Shown: piece by piece, positions 14,755 to 23,995 of the stretch
Numbering within the stretch: the stretch's first letter is position 1
Layout of the letters: every line of letters starts with the position of its first letter
Origin: Thermoplasmata archaeon
GTDB taxonomy: Archaea > Thermoplasmatota > E2 > DHVEG-1
NCBI GenBank assembly: GCA_003942085.1
Contig: DQIQ01000009.1
Location: forward strand, 1 to 48,544
DNA: 48,544 bases
Direction: 5' to 3'
Notes under the pieces: model-generated
Told to the model about the DNA's origin: nothing
The model's database searches: none
The model's input: the letters and a program-made list of their open reading frames with translations, nothing else
Translations under genes and position numbers: made by a program

Positions 14755-16518
14755 TTAAAAGAACTTCAGCACATTTATTTCCTTGAATGCGCTGTTTCCC
14801 TCTTTGTCATACGCGACAACCTTGATGGTGTAGGTGAAGAATGCTCTGTCGCTCCACGTCCACCCGTACGGTGCGGTCATATCGGTAGATTGTAGTTGCT
14901 CGTCAGTATAGAACTCCACGCGGTCAATGCCTGATTCATTGTCTGTCGCTGTCACGTTGACATCGATCTTTCCGATGATGAGGGGTGATTTCAGTGCGAG
15001 GATCTGCTTGTTCATGAAATACAATGCATTTACCGGTTTAGTGATCGCAACCGTAGGCAGTGTAGTATCTGGCACCGGGCATATGACGACTGCCTGCTCA
15101 ACGACCGTATAATTAAACCCTGCCTGATAATCGGTGAGCCACCATTGACAGTTGATATCAGACTGCGGAGAACCAATGGAGACGTTGTAGATATCATGCG
15201 AGACTTTTGCCGCATCATTATGATCGTCTGGCGATGGATTAGCGACATTTAAGGTAGGATCACTGAACGCGATCATAGATTCTTCAGAGTTTACTCCAGC
15301 GCAGGTCACGTAGTGTCCCTCTCGTCGCTCTGAGTGTGGAGGCGGGTTGTAGTATTCTGTTTTGAATGTCCAGTCAAAAGGCGAACCGTATGGATCGGTC
15401 GGCACGTTACGCATCCATCCTTGGCCCGGTAGATAGGGGTTTCCGACATCGTAGAACCATTCATAGTGATAACCGGAGACGAGCTGGAAGACATCAAAGT
15501 AATACAGGGATCCTGGGTTCAATTGTACCGCGGGGTTAAAGTTAAATTCAACCCATGTCGGAGCGCCAAGGACACCAGGATTCATCACTACGGTTCCGAT
15601 GGGGCTAGCTGGTGGAGGAGCGTTGTACACATCGATTTGGATGTCGCAAGCGTCGCCGACGCTTTGAAGAAGAATCTGGATCGCATCAAGTCTCGTTGTT
15701 GTTGGGATAAATTCCTGGTAATCGGTCCAGGGGGCTACCTTACAGAGTTCGGGCAGTGGTCCATTGATTTGAGATTGATCGATAAATTTAGGACCGATGA
15801 CAAAATCATAGGAGCCAAGTAAAAGGATGACGTTCTGACTTCGCTCTATTTCACTTTCTATGAAGTTAAAAGTTGGTCGATCATAGGTTTGCACGGTAAA
15901 TTTATCGGTAAGACCGGTTGTGTTAAACCAATCGGTTATCGCGGATTGCATATCCCCGATATAGGTTGTTCCTTTGTCGGTGGTGTTCATTGCTCGTGCG
16001 AGAGATTCAATAAGCAACGGAGCATTGGCAGTTGCATGGTCGTCACCAGCGCCATAATTTTGGACGAGGGCGAACTGATCCTGACCGTCACCAGGGGTAC
16101 CTGCTGGGTCTGCGAATTTAGAGTCAAACCACCAGAAACAATTCGCGACTGCGACCGGGCCGCAGAAAATCCATTCTTCAACATCATCACCAACGGCAGT
16201 GCTGTTCAGATAACAATCAGGACCTGGAGCGATGCAGTTTTCAGCGATATTGTACACATCATCTCCTGCAACCGTTGAATCAATTATTCCATTTGGTCCA
16301 GGACTTATCTTTTTCCAATGATCCTGTTTCTGGTCAAAATCAGGTATCCCTTGAGGCGCATAGTTCGGATATGATGGTTTCCAGTACCATCCTCTGCTTT
16401 CCATTGGGTTATCAGTACTTTTCACAACCGACGAGTTCATTGCCTGTGCTGAGGTTATCAAAAGAACGAACAACACAACCAGAGAAACAACTACCTTTAC
16501 CATTTTGTTCTTTTTCAT
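14755..16518 (-). CDS. Secreted papain-like cysteine peptidase with inserted beta-sandwich and Ig-like tail
   Basis: 587 aa from the ATG at 16518 (GGAGGG at proper spacing; an in-frame TTG at 16533 is poorer). Signal peptide ~5-26. A duplicated motif with GDDV occurs at ~74-88 and ~98-112. The candidate nucleophile is Cys119 in IFCGPVAVANCFWW, followed by a helix; the candidate His402 sits in REGHYVTCAGVN and Asp420 in IAFSDPT, the papain/C39-like order. Between them (~265-390) lies an inserted segment rich in beta strands and Pro/Gly with TTTRLDAIQILLQ and PGSLYYFDVFQL. A C-terminal Ig-like domain (~485-587) contains NVTATDNESGIDRVEFY. It probably acts outside the cell on proteins or peptides. 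Catalytic residues are inferred from motif order only. Confidence 0.75.
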   Translation of the reverse strand: MKKNKMVKVVVSLVVLFVLLITSAQAMNSSVVKSTDNPMESRGWYWKPSYPNYAPQGIPDFDQKQDHWKKISPGPNGIIDSTVAGDDVYNIAENCIAPGPDCYLNSTAVGDDVEEWIFCGPVAVANCFWWFDSKFADPAGTPGDGQDQFALVQNYGAGDDHATANAPLLIESLARAMNTTDKGTTYIGDMQSAITDWFNTTGLTDKFTVQTYDRPTFNFIESEIERSQNVILLLGSYDFVIGPKFIDQSQINGPLPELCKVAPWTDYQEFIPTTTRLDAIQILLQSVGDACDIQIDVYNAPPPASPIGTVVMNPGVLGAPTWVEFNFNPAVQLNPGSLYYFDVFQLVSGYHYEWFYDVGNPYLPGQGWMRNVPTDPYGSPFDWTFKTEYYNPPPHSERREGHYVTCAGVNSEESMIAFSDPTLNVANPSPDDHNDAAKVSHDIYNVSIGSPQSDINCQWWLTDYQAGFNYTVVEQAVVICPVPDTTLPTVAITKPVNALYFMNKQILALKSPLIIGKIDVNVTATDNESGIDRVEFYTDEQLQSTDMTAPYGWTWSDRAFFTYTIKVVAYDKEGNSAFKEINVLKFF

Positions 16519-16720
16519 TTCTTTTCCCTCCAATCCTTCTTTATCTAATTAGTATATATAACGGGGAAATGAGAAGATGTCCTTCCTGCCTCTACTTTCT
16601 CCCCCGTGTAACAATGTTGTATAAAAAATAAATTCAACATGTATTATATATAATTTGTTCTAAAGAAAATGCCAAGCACTTTAACAATTTTTTTTTCCAT
16701 GATCCTTGATTTTATTTTTT

Positions 16721-17371
16721 TTATTTCAACTCGATGCGCTTCCCGGTGTTCATATAATAGATCTCCTCAGCCATATCGCAGGCATGATCACCACAGCGTT
16801 CCAAATATCGAGCGACAAGGATGTAATGCGTGCATATGGTAATATTCGCGGGATTCTCCATCATATAGCTTACACATTCACGAAATACCGAGTAACGTAG
16901 CGAATCAACATCGTTATCTCGTTCCGAAAAATCCTTTATTAAGGAAAGATCTCCGGTTATAAACGCAGTACGGGCATCATTTATCATTTTGCAGACGATT
17001 GCGTTCATATGTGGGATGGTGACGATTTTTTTGATGTGAGGTCCGGGGTAGATTTCCTTTGCCACATTGGCGATGTCTTTCCCATACCGTCCAATACGAT
17101 TTAGATCAACGATCATTTTTAGACAGCATGCGATCGTCCGCATATCCCGAGCCATCGGTTGATACAATGCAATTAGTTGCAAAGCCTCCTCTTCGAGATC
17201 CACGTTCATTTTTGCCAAGTCTTTTTTCTTTGAGTTGACCCATTCTGCTTTTTCGATATCAAGATTCTTTAACGACTCGACCGCAGTACATAGCATAGAT
17301 GTAGCAAGATCTGCCATTTCTAACACATTTTCTTTTAATGTATCCAATTGTATATGGAATTTTTCTACCAT
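16721..17371 (-). CDS. phoU: Phosphate-specific transport regulator PhoU
   Basis: 216 aa, two three-helix PhoU repeats: the first has AVESLKNLDIEKAEWV and LYQPMARDMRTIACCLKMIVDLNRIGRYG, the second HMNAIVCKMINDARTAF and HYILVARYLERCGDHACDMAEEI. The acidic E-x-x-x-D motifs of each repeat bind metal clusters in known PhoU structures. It damps Pst uptake when phosphate is sufficient. It is last in the pstS-pstCA-pstB-phoU order, 8 bp after pstB. Confidence 0.93.
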   Translation of the reverse strand: MVEKFHIQLDTLKENVLEMADLATSMLCTAVESLKNLDIEKAEWVNSKKKDLAKMNVDLEEEALQLIALYQPMARDMRTIACCLKMIVDLNRIGRYGKDIANVAKEIYPGPHIKKIVTIPHMNAIVCKMINDARTAFITGDLSLIKDFSERDNDVDSLRYSVFRECVSYMMENPANITICTHYILVARYLERCGDHACDMAEEIYYMNTGKRIELK

Positions 17372-17379
17372 TTTTTCAC

Positions 17380-18144
17380 CTAACCAAATCTTCCCGTGAT
17401 ATAATTTTCTGTCAGTTCCTCTTTCGGGTTTTCGAAAATCTGATCGGTCTCACCAAACTCAATCATTTTTCCTAGATACATATAGGCCGTATAATCACTC
17501 ACTCGTGCAGCCTGTTGCATATTATGTGTAACAATGATCACGGTATATTTCTTTTTCAGTCCGGTCATTAAATCCTCGATTTTTGCTGTTGCAATCGGAT
17601 CGAGAGCCGAACAAGGTTCATCCATGAGGATTACCTCTGGTTCAATCGAAAGGGACCGTGCGATACACAATCGTTGCTGCTGACCACCAGAGAGCCCCAT
17701 GGCTGATTCATGTAATCGATCTTTTACCTCATCCCACAATGCAGCATTCTTGAGGCTTTTTTCCACTACATCATCAAGTGAGCTTTTATTAGTAATCCCC
17801 TGCACCCTTGAACCATATGCGACATTTTCATAAATGGTTTTTGGAAATGGGTTCGGTTTTTGGAACACCATGCCGATTTTTTTTCGTACCTCGACTGCAT
17901 CAGCATCTGGCTCGTAGATATCATGTTCATGGAAAAAAATTTTCCCAGTAATTTTACATTTATCGATCACATCATTCATTCGATTAAAACACCGAATCAA
18001 TGTTGATTTTCCACAGCCGGACGGACCTATAAGTGCCGTGATTTTATTTGGAATAATACCAAGGGTGATATCATATAATGCTTGTTTTTCGCCATACCAG
18101 AGATTCAGGTTTTCAGTTCTGATTAACTTGTCGTTGCTTGTCAT
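17380..18144 (-). CDS. pstB: Phosphate ABC transporter ATP-binding protein PstB
   Basis: 254 aa, standard PstB length. Walker A GPSGCGKS (40-47), Q-loop in [13 protein letters not shown], signature [13 protein letters not shown] (151-163), Walker [14 protein letters not shown] (171-183), H-loop VTHNMQQA. The motif QKPNPFP is diagnostic for PstB among ABC ATPases. It powers the fused PstC-PstA permease encoded 7 bp upstream. Confidence 0.97.
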
Positions 18145-18151
18145 GAGGTTT

Positions 18152-20095
18152 TCACCATTTCATTTTTTTTCTAAATCTATTGCGGAGGAGAATCGCAATC
18201 AAATAAATTCCAATGACGAGGAGTAATAACACAAGTGCGGTTCCTGCTTGGTTCTGTTTTGAACCTGGGATTGAGGTTGCTAGCGTGAAGAGATGATAGG
18301 GTAATGCATTGACTGGTTGTAGCACCGAACTTGGTATGAAATCCGAGAACACGACCGCGGTAAATAAGATAGGTGCGGTCTCACCAGCAGCTCTCCCTAT
18401 CCCCAGGATTGCTCCGGTGAGAATCCCTGGTGCTGCCGGTGGTAATACCACCTTTCGAATCGTCTGCCATTTTGTCGCCCCGAGTGCATAACTTCCCTCA
18501 CGTAACGACTGCGGGACGCTTTTTAATGCTTCTTCAGTGGTTCGGATGATCGTTGGCAGGATCATAAATGCTAAGGTGATCTGTCCCGCGAGCAGAGAAA
18601 AACCAAATTTCAGGTACAAAACAAAAAACGCAAAACCGAAAAGTCCGAACACAATCGAAGGAGTTCCATTGAGCAGATCAGCACCTGCGCGGATTATTTT
18701 TGTCACTATTCCTTCTCTGGTGTATTCATGTAAAAATATTGCTGCACCGACTCCCAGTGGTAAAGAGATTGCTATAGCACCTGCGACTAAGTATAATGTC
18801 CCGATAATTGCTGGAAAAATACCACCTGACCTTCCAAGATTGCTTGGTCCGGTGGCAATGAACTCCCAGCTGAGTGCTCCAACTCCGTTGGTGACAATAT
18901 AAGCAAGAATGATGCCAAGGAAAATAATGACGATGATGATGGTCAGAGAAATCATGCTGAAGGCGATTTTCTGTTTTATTTTTATAGAGATTTTCTTCAT
19001 CGCATAATATATTACTGCAATAAGAGCAAGAATGCCGACTGTTGGGAATATTCCAACCGCCATAAGGAGTATTATAACAATAATGATACCAATAAAAAGA
19101 TAGAATGATAGTTTTATTTTTCTTCCAAGCTCAAAGGAGATGATCGGTTGTTTCTTTGACCCTGATCGTTGTCTTTCTTTTAATCTTCCTAAGATGATGG
19201 TGGCAAGGATGTTGACGATGAGCGTAATAATCAAGAGGATGAGTGCAAGCCCGAATAAAGCACTGTAATGGTCACTGCCGGTTGCTACTTCCCCCATCTC
19301 TATTCCCAAGGTTGCGGTAAGGGTTTTGATTGGGGCAAATACATTTGTGATGGGATTGGGAATGAGCCCGTAGGTCGGATTACCACAGACCATCATGACT
19401 GCCATGGTTTCCCCGATGGCACGCCCGATCCCCAGGATTATTGCCGCGGTGATTCCTGACATCGCTGAGGGAACAACGATTTTACTGATGGTCTGCCATC
19501 GTGTCGCGCCAATAGCAAGAGACCCTTCTTTATATTCACGGGGGACAGCACTGATTGCATCTTCTGCGACACTGGTTATGGTGGGAATCGCCATGACACC
19601 CAGAAGAATGGACCCAGCAAGCCAAGATTCCCCTGTAGGAACATCAAAAGTGATCTGCAGCCAGGTGGTCAGCACAATTAATCCAAAAAAACCAAACACC
19701 ACGGATGGGATGCCGGCCAGCAGCTCAATCGCAGGCTTTATGATGGCCTTTATTCGGGGAGTGGCGATCTCAGAAATAAAAATAGCACTTCCTATGCTCA
19801 GTGGAATGGCAATGAGCATCGCACCCAGAGTCACCAGTAATGTATCCACGATGAGCGGAAATGCTCCGTAGAGCGGTGGTTGGCCTGTGGGATACCATCG
19901 CATACCGATGAGAAAATCCACTATGCCTTTTTTTTGAAAAATCGGATAGGCATCTCGGAATAAAAAGAAGATGATGGAGAAAATGACGATGATCGCTGAG
20001 ATGGCACTGAGAAAAAAAAGGGTTTTCATTCCTTTTTCTTTTATTTTGGAACCTTTCCAGGGGAGATGAATTTTACCCATCATTATACGAACCAC
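18152..20095 (-). CDS. pstCA: Fused phosphate permease PstC-PstA
   Basis: 647 aa in one uninterrupted frame where two genes are usual. The N-terminal half is PstC-like, with the EAA loop [17 protein letters not shown] near residue ~193 and [14 protein letters not shown]. The C-terminal half is PstA-like, with [17 protein letters not shown] near ~528 and [16 protein letters not shown]. They are joined by a region (~320-400) with two or three extra membrane helices, including [21 protein letters not shown], which may keep both halves in the correct topology. The fusion would fix 1:1 stoichiometry. The start is ambiguous: GTG 20095 (used here), ATG 20083 or ATG 20080. It lies between pstS and pstB, 83 bp after pstS. 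Confidence 0.93.
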
Positions 20096-20137
20096 TACTC
20101 CTTTCTCCTCATCTTTTCCTCAGTGAAAATGTGAGCG

Positions 20138-20178: not shown

Positions 20179-21075
20179 TTATTTGCTTAAATCTTTCCAG
20201 TTTGTTATTTCTCCAAGATAGATTGATTTTAATTGTGCTAGGGTAAGTCCCGTTACATAAGTATTTTGTGGATTGACAATGATTGCGATGCCATCTTTTG
20301 CGATGACATGTTTCACAAGACCTTTACCTTGTTCTGATGATTGAAGATCACGGGATGACATCCCAATATCAGCGGTTCCTTGGCTGACCGCTGAAATACC
20401 TGCACCAGAACCTCCACCGGTCACAGTAACTGTTAAATCCGGGTAAAGCACCTTAAAAGCTGTTGCTGCTTTATCCGTAATCGGGAGGACTGTTGTTGAT
20501 CCACTGACGGTCAACGTTCCAGACAGGGTCTTTCCTGAGGTGTTATAGTGAGATGTATTTTGTAATGGTACATATCCTTCTTGTGTCACGATTGCTTGTC
20601 CCTCGGTGCTTTGGATATACAGGATGAATTCTTTTGTTGCTCCTGTTGCGTTTCCTTTCGTAAACATGTAGAGGTCACGGGAGATCGGATAGGTTCCTGC
20701 AAGGACGTTTTGGACATTTGCCGTGATATTGTTGATTTTTAATGCTTTTACTGTAGAATCAACATAGCCAAGACCGACGTATCCAATTGCTCCCGGTGTT
20801 TGTGAGACGGTCTGTTGGACTGCACCGTTTGAGTTTTTTTCGAGTAGCGATGCGCTGAAGTTTGCTTTTCCCATTACAAATGTCCAGAAAAATTCTCGTG
20901 TTCCCGATGTACTGTCCCTTCCGATAAGAACTATAGATTCCCCTTGTTGTCCTTGTTGTTGTACGCATCCACTAAATAAAGAAGTGCCTAGGATAATTAT
21001 GACTGCAAGACTGATTACTAGCATTCCCAATTGCCGTTTTTCTTTTTGTTGATTTATTTGTATCACCAAAATCAT
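20179..21075 (-). CDS. pstS: Phosphate-binding lipoprotein PstS with permuted domain order
   Basis: 298 aa. Lipoprotein signal with basic KEKR, a hydrophobic stretch and lipobox LFSGC (Cys37). After a Gln-rich linker the chain begins with what is normally the second half of PstS: GRDSTSGTREFF (52-63), GAIGYVGLGYVD (95-106), YPISRDLYMFTKG (129-141), EGYVPL (166-171). A linker (~173-187) leads into what is normally the first half: LTVSGSTTVLPI (188-199), VTGGGSGAGISAV (218-230), ADIGMSSRDL (235-244), DGIAIIVNP (261-269), and it ends at EITNWKDLSK, exactly where ordinary PstS would continue into the GRD-SGTR part. All phosphate-contact motifs are present, so it is probably functional. Upstream TATA-like sequence at ~21091-21100 suggests a leaderless message. 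Confidence 0.93.
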   Translation of the reverse strand: MILVIQINQQKEKRQLGMLVISLAVIIILGTSLFSGCVQQQGQQGESIVLIGRDSTSGTREFFWTFVMGKANFSASLLEKNSNGAVQQTVSQTPGAIGYVGLGYVDSTVKALKINNITANVQNVLAGTYPISRDLYMFTKGNATGATKEFILYIQSTEGQAIVTQEGYVPLQNTSHYNTSGKTLSGTLTVSGSTTVLPITDKAATAFKVLYPDLTVTVTGGGSGAGISAVSQGTADIGMSSRDLQSSEQGKGLVKHVIAKDGIAIIVNPQNTYVTGLTLAQLKSIYLGEITNWKDLSK

Positions 21076-21204
21076 AGCAAGAATACATTAGATATATACT
21101 TTATCTACATATTCTATAGTGATATATATAGTCATAATTTTTCAATAGAGTTCTATAGAAATGTTTAATACCCTCCTCTTTTTACTATTCATTTGGTGAA
21201 ATCA
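21076..21204. promoter_or_regulatory. Divergent pst / phoU2 control region
   Basis: The 129-bp gap between pstS and the AbrB-PhoU regulator is extremely AT-rich. TTCTATAG occurs at 21112-21119 and again at 21151-21158, where it is part of the perfect 10-bp palindrome TTCTATAGAA (21151-21160); TTCAATAG at 21141-21148 is a near match. GATATATATA (21121-21130) and GATATATACT (21091-21100) can serve as TATA elements in either direction. The layout suggests a shared operator, possibly for the AbrB-domain protein itself; this is inference. Confidence 0.5.
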
Positions 21205-22212
21205 ATGGAAATACGGCGAGTGCAACTAACTGGAGGTTCTTCGTTCATTATCACTTTACCCAAAGATTGGATAAAATCCCGTAACATCAAGAAAAACGAT
21301 CCGTTAGGAATCCACATCCAATCAGATGGCACCCTTCTTCTCACCTCGAAAATAACCCAAGAGCCACAGCAGAAAATAAAAGAATTCGACGTCAGCAAAA
21401 TTACGAAACCAACCTATCTGCTTCAACTCTTGATTGGTGCTTATATCGCAGGATACTCGTCAATAAAGATAACATCCCCTTTACGGATGTCGACTGCTGT
21501 GCGCAACGTGATCCGGTCATTTACACAACTCGCCATCGGCCCAGAGGTCATCGAAGAGACCGATACCATGGTCATCCTAAAAGACCTTCACAATCCAACG
21601 GAGATGCCACTTGATAAGACGATCAAACGGATGCATGTCATCGTCAAGGGGATGAACGAAGACGTCATGCGTGCGTTACAAATGAAAGATATCGCCTTAT
21701 CTGAAGATGTTTGTTCGCGCGATAATGATGTCGACCGCCTTCATTGGCTGGTCGCACGACAATACAATATTCTCCTCCAAAATGCAAGTCTTGCAGATAA
21801 AATGCATATCACAGTCCAAATGGCATCTACCTGTTTTCTCATCAGTAAAATCATCGAGCGAATTGGTGATCATGTCGTCCGTATCGCACAAAACACGCCA
21901 AACCTCATCACCAGCAATCTTGATAAAAAAATCATAGAAAAAATCCTGATAGCCAGTACGCTCTCCCTAGATATCTTTAATAAAAGCATCAGCTCGTTTT
22001 TTAAAAAAGACATCAAAGCATCAAATGAAACGCTTGAATCACTCGTAAAACTCGAATCCCTCTGTGAAGAAATTAGTACTCTCGCTCTCCAACAAAAAGG
22101 CATCGTTGCAATATCCACGGGATACATCATTGAAAGCATTCGAAGGACCGGAGAGTACGCCGAGGATATCTCAGAAAATGTTATTAACTATCTTGTCGGA
22201 GAAGAACAATAA
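21205..22212 (+). CDS. AbrB-domain PhoU-type phosphate regulator
   Basis: 335 aa from the ATG at 21205, preferred over TTG 21193 and GTG 21196 because GGTG lies 6 nt before it. The N-terminal ~45 residues form an AbrB/SpoVT-type swapped-hairpin DNA-binding domain (RRVQLTGGSSFIITLPKDWI), followed by two PhoU repeats (~75-330) with SRDNDVDRLHWLVARQYN and KIIERIGDHVVRIAQ. This architecture is archaeal and is usually linked to phosphate uptake genes; the AbrB part suggests direct DNA binding, unlike classical PhoU. It is transcribed away from pstS and lies ahead of DUF47 and pit, so it may control both uptake systems. No histidine-kinase partner is nearby. Confidence 0.9.
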   Translation: MEIRRVQLTGGSSFIITLPKDWIKSRNIKKNDPLGIHIQSDGTLLLTSKITQEPQQKIKEFDVSKITKPTYLLQLLIGAYIAGYSSIKITSPLRMSTAVRNVIRSFTQLAIGPEVIEETDTMVILKDLHNPTEMPLDKTIKRMHVIVKGMNEDVMRALQMKDIALSEDVCSRDNDVDRLHWLVARQYNILLQNASLADKMHITVQMASTCFLISKIIERIGDHVVRIAQNTPNLITSNLDKKIIEKILIASTLSLDIFNKSISSFFKKDIKASNETLESLVKLESLCEEISTLALQQKGIVAISTGYIIESIRRTGEYAEDISENVINYLVGEEQ

Positions 22213-22333: not shown

Positions 22334-22963
22334 ATGGGAGTTCTCTCTTGGTTAATACCTCAAGAAAAACATTTTTTTGACATGATCGAGGAGCAAAGTA
22401 AAAATGTCCTCGTAGGTGTCGAAGCGTTGGTAAATTTACTAGAACATTATAATGAAATTGATAAAAAGCGAGAGCGAATAAAGCAGATTGAAAACGATGG
22501 CGATAAAATGGTTCATGATATCTTTTCAGAGTTGAATAAGACCTTTATCACTCCCATTGATCGAGAGGACATAACCAAGTTAACGAGCTCGCTTGATGAC
22601 ATTCTGGATAATTTAGAGGCGGTCTCAGAACGATTGATCATCTATGAAATTAAAAAACCTCCTAAGTATATGCTCGAATTCGCACAGATATTGCAAAAAA
22701 CTACTCGTAACGTAAACGAAGGAATTAATCTTCTACGAAATCTCAAAGAGGCAAAACAGATTCGGATGTACTGTCGAGAAGTCAACACCTTGGAAAACGA
22801 AGGAGATATTCTGCTACGGAAAGCAACCGCTGAATTGTTCACTAGTAAAAATCCAATCGAGATTATTAAAATAAAGGAACTTTATGATGATTTAGAAGCT
22901 GCAATCGACCGATGTGAAGATGTCGCTGATGTGATTGGAGATATTCTGGTGAAGTACACGTAG
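22334..22963 (+). CDS. DUF47 family (PhoU-like) Pit accessory protein
   Basis: 209 aa, all-helical, with WLIPQEKHFFDMIEEQSKNV at the start and the PhoU-like E/D motifs EIDKKRERIKQIENDGDKMVHDI and LYDDLEAAIDRCEDVADVIGDI. DUF47 proteins are almost always encoded before Pit permeases and probably gate them; that is the arrangement here, with 9 bp between the genes. AAGGAG precedes the ATG. The gene ends in TAG. The third PhoU-fold protein in the island. Confidence 0.93.
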   Translation: MGVLSWLIPQEKHFFDMIEEQSKNVLVGVEALVNLLEHYNEIDKKRERIKQIENDGDKMVHDIFSELNKTFITPIDREDITKLTSSLDDILDNLEAVSERLIIYEIKKPPKYMLEFAQILQKTTRNVNEGINLLRNLKEAKQIRMYCREVNTLENEGDILLRKATAELFTSKNPIEIIKIKELYDDLEAAIDRCEDVADVIGDILVKYT

Positions 22964-22972
22964 GGCAAAAAA

Positions 22973-23995
22973 ATGATTGATTTAGTGATTGTTGTCATCG
23001 TTATTATTTTTCTTGCCTTAATTTTTGATTTTACAAACGGGTTCCATGATTCGGCAAATGCTATCGCCACTGTCGTTTCCACGAAAGTTCTAACCCCGCG
23101 ACAGGCTGTTGCATTTGCCGCGTTTTTCAATTTTGTAGCTGCATTCGGGTTCGGGGTTGCCGTAGCGAGTACTATTAGCAAAATCATCCATCTTAATATC
23201 GTCGCAATGGAGCTTATTCCATTTATTATTCTTGGAGGGCTCACTGGTGCCATAAGCTGGAATATCATCACCTGGTACCTAGGGCTTCCAACGTCTTCTT
23301 CACACGCACTTATCGGTGGAATCATGGGATCTGGTATTTCAGCAGCAGGTCTAACGGTCATAAAATATGAGACAGTCGAACTTGCAGCAATATTTATGTT
23401 TGTCTCACCATTGATTGGCCTTGTGTTCGGGTTTTTGTTCATGGTCATAGTACTCTGGGTGTGTCGGAGAAGTTCAAGATCAAAGGTTGACCGATATTTC
23501 AAAAGGCTTCAGCTGTTTTCAGCAGGTATCTACAGTTTCAGTCATGGAACAAATGATGCACAAAAAACTATGGGGATTATCACTCCGCTCTTATTTAGCA
23601 TCGGGTATTTTAGTACCTCTGTTGATCCGAACAATCTCCCCGTCCCTCTTTGGGTTATTTTATCTGCACATGCTGCTATTGCACTTGGTACGCTTGCAGG
23701 AGGATGGCGAATTGTAAAAACTATGGGGCATCGAATCACCAAACTTCGACCGGTGCATGGTTTTGCCGCGGAAACCGCGGGAGCCGCAACTATCCTTGGA
23801 GCATCTATCGCTGGCATTCCCGTGAGCACCACCCATGTTATTTGTGCCTCGATAATGGGAGTTGGCGCGACAAAACGACTCAGTGCTGTACGGTGGGGGA
23901 TAGCACGAAACATTGTCTGGGTCTGGATTCTCACGATACCGATTAGTGCTTTAATTGGATTTTTCGCATTTAAAATAATTCAGATTTTTATCTAG
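22973..23995 (+). CDS. pit: Inorganic phosphate permease, PiT family
   Basis: 340 aa, about ten membrane helices. Both PiT signature repeats are present: FDFTNGFHDSANAIATVVST (19-38) and FSHGTNDAQKTMGI (~189-202), containing the conserved Asn/Asp residues that bind phosphate and cation. PiT proteins take up phosphate with Na+ or H+ at low affinity, complementing the high-affinity Pst system encoded divergently. It is last in the regulator-DUF47-pit run and ends in TAG. The identification is firm; the coupling ion cannot be read. Confidence 0.96.
   Translation: MIDLVIVVIVIIFLALIFDFTNGFHDSANAIATVVSTKVLTPRQAVAFAAFFNFVAAFGFGVAVASTISKIIHLNIVAMELIPFIILGGLTGAISWNIITWYLGLPTSSSHALIGGIMGSGISAAGLTVIKYETVELAAIFMFVSPLIGLVFGFLFMVIVLWVCRRSSRSKVDRYFKRLQLFSAGIYSFSHGTNDAQKTMGIITPLLFSIGYFSTSVDPNNLPVPLWVILSAHAAIALGTLAGGWRIVKTMGHRITKLRPVHGFAAETAGAATILGASIAGIPVSTTHVICASIMGVGATKRLSAVRWGIARNIVWVWILTIPISALIGFFAFKIIQIFI

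Follow-up and report, generated by a model that had tools for sequence, protein, structure and literature searches.

A circularly permuted PstS, predicted to bind phosphate, in a Thermoplasmata archaeon and the recurrence of permuted PstS in archaea and bacteria

The window analyzed here, a stretch of 48,544 nucleotides from a Thermoplasmata archaeon, encodes at 20179..21075 on the minus strand a lipoprotein that is very probably a working PstS of a Pst ABC importer, predicted to bind phosphate, whose chain would have been circularly permuted by tandem duplication of the gene followed by trimming. The open reading frame of this gene, pstS(cp), is intact, with an ATG start, a TAA stop and a product of 298 aa; the first-pass annotation had given it the correct coordinates, and the frame lies on the minus strand. 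In conventional PstS three segments follow each other in the order N-Ca-Cb, whereas profile and segment searches assign the order Ca-Cb-N to the window protein.

All parts of the gene are on the minus strand. The chain starts with a signal peptide (residues 1-36, 20968..21075), recognized in the sequence and modeled as a helix at residues 2-34, and the lipobox LFSGC with Cys37 (20965..20967), which is invariant in 46 permuted relatives. Segment Ca, delimited by segment and PDB matches (residues 46-107, 20755..20940; IVLIGRDSTSGTREFF ... GAIGYVGLG), contains the phosphate-contact motif RxxSGTR and is followed by the formerly C-terminal segment Cb, delimited by segment matches (residues 108-174, 20554..20754; VKALKI ... 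YPISRDLYMF ... EGQAIVTQEGYVPL). As judged by segment comparison, the former C- and N-termini are connected by a new linker (residues 175-181, 20533..20553), which leads into the formerly N-terminal segment N, again supported by segment and PDB matches (residues 182-296, 20188..20532; SGTLTVSGSTTVLPI ... GGGSGAGISAV ... DIGMSSRDL ... DGIAIIVNP ... EITNWKDL). The linker had been put at ~15 residues and is actually about 7-13 residues long (SHYNTSG, or QNTSHYNTSGKTL if counted from VPL). All motifs cited in the first-pass annotation were found, one copy each and in the reversed order that it described. With N, Ca and Cb present once each, shifted cyclically and joined by a linker between the former termini in an intact frame, the protein is a circular permutant of a whole PstS rather than a fragment, as had been proposed. 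The motifs GSTT, GGGS, DIGM-SRD and RxxSGTR, each present once, we take to be ligand contacts by reference to E. coli PstS; residues R53, S57, G58, S193, S223 and S241 are invariant among the 46 permuted relatives.

Both PstS profiles suggested for a check match the window protein in two stretches of reversed order, TIGR02136 with an E-value of 6.2e-74 (248.8 bits, cut-off 206.6) and PF12849 with 2.1e-43 (149.4 against a cut-off of 27). The first half of the profile falls on residues 176-297 (TIGR02136) or 180-295 (PF12849), and the second half lies upstream of them. The nearest conventional PstS proteins in the PDB search, 4q8r and 4gd5, are likewise matched in reversed order, residues 186-296 corresponding to chain positions 4-113 and residues 46-177 to 118-251. 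The single collinear match that would have spoken against the permutation is absent for both profiles and for these structures, and because no collinear N-Ca-Cb match exists the protein is filed as a permuted and not a conventional PstS. It matches PstS families only and does not have the Type I/cluster B sugar-binding fold.

The AlphaFold2 model of the window protein, built from 46 permuted sequences (pLDDT 93.3, pTM 0.80), has the type II binding-protein fold. In a Foldseek search, which respects chain order, its best PDB match was the solved phosphate-binding protein 4h1x (E-value 7.5e-29, TM 0.75/0.86, 260 columns; next match 4.7e-6), and this top match has the same permuted order. The conventional PstS structures 4q8r, 4gd5, 4omb, 4pqj and 1twy were aligned with the model over 109-147 columns only, with TM of at most 0.43. 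The segment order of 4h1x was identified as Ca-Cb-N by segment HMMs and its sequence alignment consists of one stretch; it is collinear with a bacterial permuted protein (residues 37-293 to 9-263, E-value 8.5e-63), and thus a solved structure of the permuted topology exists.

In a published PstS, the N-lobe comprises residues 24-111 and 279-324, the C-lobe residues 112-278, and the hinge strands residues 102-117 (PMC12421899). The long strand 253-267 of our model corresponds to the hinge strand, and the window protein ends ~30 residues later; the break, originally ascribed to a hinge crossing, therefore lies inside the C-lobe, ~30 residues past that strand. Conventional PstS has both termini in the N-lobe and a continuous C-lobe; by this mapping, based on sequence and secondary structure, the permuted protein would have a continuous N-lobe and both termini in the C-lobe. 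Since the break is inside the C-lobe, the membrane anchor at Cys37 would be attached to the lobe opposite to that of conventional PstS.

The pstS(cp) gene is encoded together with pstC, pstA, pstB and phoU. On the same strand, a single frame of 647 aa combines pstC and pstA (18152..20095; PstC at residues ~21-304 and PstA at ~376-642, by TIGR02138 and TIGR00974), followed by pstB for the ATPase (17380..18144, TIGR00972) and phoU (16721..17371, TIGR02135), and pstC stands directly after every permuted or tandem gene examined. A divergently transcribed regulator with AbrB/MazE-type and PhoU domains, identified by domain matches (21193..22212, plus strand), is found beside pstS(cp) in most archaeal relatives. 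The gene is under purifying selection, with dN/dS of 0.07-0.19 among the archaeal orthologues. Two further loci flank this region. At 22334-23995 on the plus strand, genes for a DUF47/PhoU-like protein and, after it, a PiT-type phosphate transporter provide a second phosphate uptake route beside the pst operon; just past phoU, at 14755-16533 on the minus strand, a secreted protein of 592 aa is encoded that ends in a bacterial Ig domain (PF17957).

The window genome possesses a second pst-like operon (L170:3903-7485) consisting of pstB, pstA, pstC and a gene for a PstS-like lipoprotein of the conventional kind whose sequence has diverged strongly. Its presence would be compatible with a permuted protein that carries another oxyanion, or acts as a sensor only, and no longer serves phosphate. 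We regard such a change of role as quite unlikely, given the position of the gene with pstCA, pstB and phoU, the nearby PiT transporter and PhoU-type regulators, the retention of the RxxSGTR, GSTT, GGGS and DIGM-SRD motifs, and a TIGR02136 score above the cut-off. The permuted order itself could be questioned on another ground, since the window comes from a fragmented draft genome of 135 contigs, 82.9% complete, in which misjoining of a duplicated pstS, or binning, might have created it. Such an assembly error, named at the outset as an outcome that would speak against the permutation, is already refuted by independent assemblies, and the chance of it is practically nil. Eleven further genomes of the archaeal family encode a full-length protein in the permuted order, 53-87% identical and flanked by the same genes. 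The order also occurs on a 3.16 Mb bacterial contig, where the pstS-C-A-B-phoU operon is complete and genes for a response regulator and a histidine kinase come after it, and in two named isolates on complete plasmids, pTS2 of Treponema saccharophilum and plasmid 3 of Monoglobus pectinilyticus, with annotated pstC, pstA, pstB and phoU after each permuted gene; the solved structure 4h1x has it as well.

The permuted protein is widespread beyond the window. A search of 45 genomes from the archaeal family to which the window belongs found full-length collinear homologues with 53-100% identity in 12, its own genome included; beyond those 12, G037 and G012 have copies truncated at the ends of contigs, and in one of them nothing but the last part of segment N is seen. 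The assemblies L004 and L005, deposited for close relatives, show the same permuted order. In the Oscillospiraceae family of locus L006, collinear matches to the protein of that locus came from ~54 of the 401 genomes sampled, and 30 of these bacterial loci, plus L188, were all assigned to Ca-Cb-N by segment HMMs. A wider phylum sample contained permuted PstS in 14 of 399 genomes. The L006 protein scores below the TIGR02136 cut-off (176.9 against 206.6 bits), and in two named isolates the permuted PstS (L196:3923-4792 and L197:3953-4768) carries no more specific annotation than 'substrate-binding domain-containing protein' despite the adjacent pstC; phosphate uptake genes of gut bacteria are thus under-named.

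Sorting of loci by segment-specific HMMs (N, Ca, Cb) yielded three cyclic orders, N-Ca-Cb, Ca-Cb-N and Cb-N-Ca, so the permuted order is not only real but belongs to a wider set of forms than the first-pass annotation described. The Ca-Cb-N order was found in 67 frames (repeat entries of a locus counted) and Cb-N-Ca in 13 single frames (L103, L104, L106, L109, L111, L176-L182; repeat entries counted) from families elsewhere in the archaeal phylum of the window. This second permutation is assigned by segment order in the sequence, an AlphaFold2 model from 5 sequences having reached a pLDDT of only 48.7. The survey for tandem intermediates that had been suggested yielded double and triple fusions in single frames, in both archaea and Bacillota: two N-Ca-Cb units (archaeal L110; bacterial L153, L154 and L185), three N-Ca-Cb units (L183, L184), and two Cb-N-Ca units (L095, L096, L102). 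The triple fusions (L183:3799-7038, L184:734-3973) are 1080 aa frames from the archaeal-phylum family f24. In L102 (L102:1291-2964, also L172), located on a 1.89 Mb contig, the two units are nearly identical in protein sequence, which suggests that they were duplicated very recently or homogenized by gene conversion. The window's own clade yielded no tandem PstS. The Cb-N-Ca proteins L176-L178 of family f38 have the tandem L110 as their nearest relative in either half, and its inter-unit stretch FYEISQNAYEDNLVKMG resembles their linker FYALSDADLAAMREKLAG; of all the forms, this tandem comes nearest to an intermediate caught in the act.

Several other candidate tandems or remnants were rejected. 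In genome G041, PstS is encoded by a frame of normal length (293 aa) and not by the 983 aa frame there, and among the bacterial frames of 636-753 aa only L185 is a true tandem, L122, L186 and L187 having spurious upstream extensions. A PF12849 match that reads past the stop of pstS(cp) to position 20110 might be taken for a remnant of a second Ca; the downstream frames of close relatives show nothing similar, and the match is therefore not counted as a vestige. Apart from these rejected cases, four Clostridiales loci (L047, L049, L050, L055) contain two adjacent frames of ~830-880 aa each with partial PstS matches (N and Cb).

For phylogenetic analysis the segments were aligned separately and returned to one common order. 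The deep trees are of about 250 columns and have many weak nodes, and the rows of 4h1x and L155/L188 are unstable in them. The archaeal Ca-Cb-N clade (97) is nested among conventional archaeal PstS (98% SH-aLRT), the bacterial Ca-Cb-N clade lies apart from it, with or beside Bacillota PstS, and the two Cb-N-Ca groups fall in different subfamilies. Parsimony, which does not give direction, requires at least four changes of order on the cleaned set; N-Ca-Cb is considered ancestral because of its breadth. The divergent Ca-Cb-N proteins L155/L188 of Bacillota may represent a further origin. The identical breakpoint and the similar linker length of the archaeal and Bacillota groups are what one would expect if Ca-Cb-N had arisen once and then passed between them by lateral transfer. 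Nevertheless, a single clade of all Ca-Cb-N proteins (CP1) was rejected by the AU test (p 0.0103 in the first test and 0.00015 in the second, which left out L155/L188), as was a single clade of all Cb-N-Ca proteins (CP2; p 0.0008), these p-values being somewhat optimistic since the groups were named after the first tree had been seen. Together with the position of the archaeal clade inside conventional archaeal PstS, this makes a single origin improbable. Domain shuffling that joined halves of two different PstS genes could also produce a reversed order. However, one set of conventional archaeal PstS (L097-L108) is nearest to the archaeal permuted clade in its N and its C half alike (49-56% for the N and 59-63% for the C half, with weakly supported half-trees), and both halves of the f38 clade point to the one tandem L110. 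Shared nearest relatives of both halves argue for rearrangement within one gene and make such a chimera highly unlikely.

Under the preferred reading, duplication and trimming, an in-frame tandem duplication of pstS would have produced [N-Ca-Cb][N-Ca-Cb], and loss of the first N and of the second Ca-Cb, with the signal peptide retained, would have left Ca-Cb-N. This origin, proposed in the first-pass annotation, is supported by the natural fusions and by the one archaeal family with a tandem nearest to permuted forms; for the window's own lineage it is the most likely route by analogy with those other lineages. The resulting chain would start in the C-lobe with Ca, continue through Cb back into the N-lobe, pass the new linker and the old N-terminal part, and end in the C-lobe just after 'EITNWKDL'. 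No change is predicted in the fold or in the phosphate site, and hence the protein should still close on phosphate, which would then be handed to the permease formed by the PstC-PstA fusion and powered by PstB. The change implied is a lipid anchor on the other lobe, a relocation that may have brought some benefit.

A broader reading is that PstS was permuted independently at least four times, with Ca-Cb-N arising separately in Bacillota and in the archaeal family of the window, that the living [PstS]2 and [PstS]3 genes are duplication intermediates, and that selection acted convergently on how the binding protein is tethered or presented to the permease. Taken as a whole we consider it moderately probable; if true, it would point to such convergent selection, and it raises the question whether tethering to the membrane by one or the other lobe matters for a binding protein. 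To our knowledge, there are few natural circular permutations whose intermediates can still be seen. The parent order, two permuted orders, and double and triple tandems across archaea and bacteria, all of one small and well-understood protein, make the duplication-and-trimming model directly testable.

Conventional PstS proteins (TIGR02136/PF12849; 4q8r, 4gd5) are homologous to the window protein in all segments and share its ligand motifs and operon, but differ in the N-Ca-Cb order and in the anchor on the N-lobe. The closest solved relative in topology, 4h1x, is SP_2084 ('PstS 2') of Streptococcus pneumoniae TIGR4, released in 2012; it is a PstS family protein with the same Ca-Cb-N order and fold, but it is bacterial and about 35% identical in the structure alignment. 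Its title does not mention permutation, and in the open-licence literature we found neither a paper naming 4h1x nor one connecting PstS with natural circular permutation. Among other binding proteins, TpMglB-2 (Tp0684) of Treponema pallidum is a naturally circularly permuted glucose-binding lipoprotein of an ABC importer (PMC4990184). Like the window protein, it is a permuted importer lipoprotein, and its bilobed fold and binding are kept; unlike it, TpMglB-2 has a Type I/cluster B sugar-binding fold with the break within the N-lobe, and is one described event with a poor sequence match in the moved part (PMC4990184). Its authors suggested tethering as a possible reason for the permutation and considered a chimeric origin (PMC4990184). 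Permutation of a binding protein is therefore already known from TpMglB-2, whereas recurrent permutation of PstS appears undescribed, and it is the recurrent origin with visible intermediates that is of interest beyond the known case.
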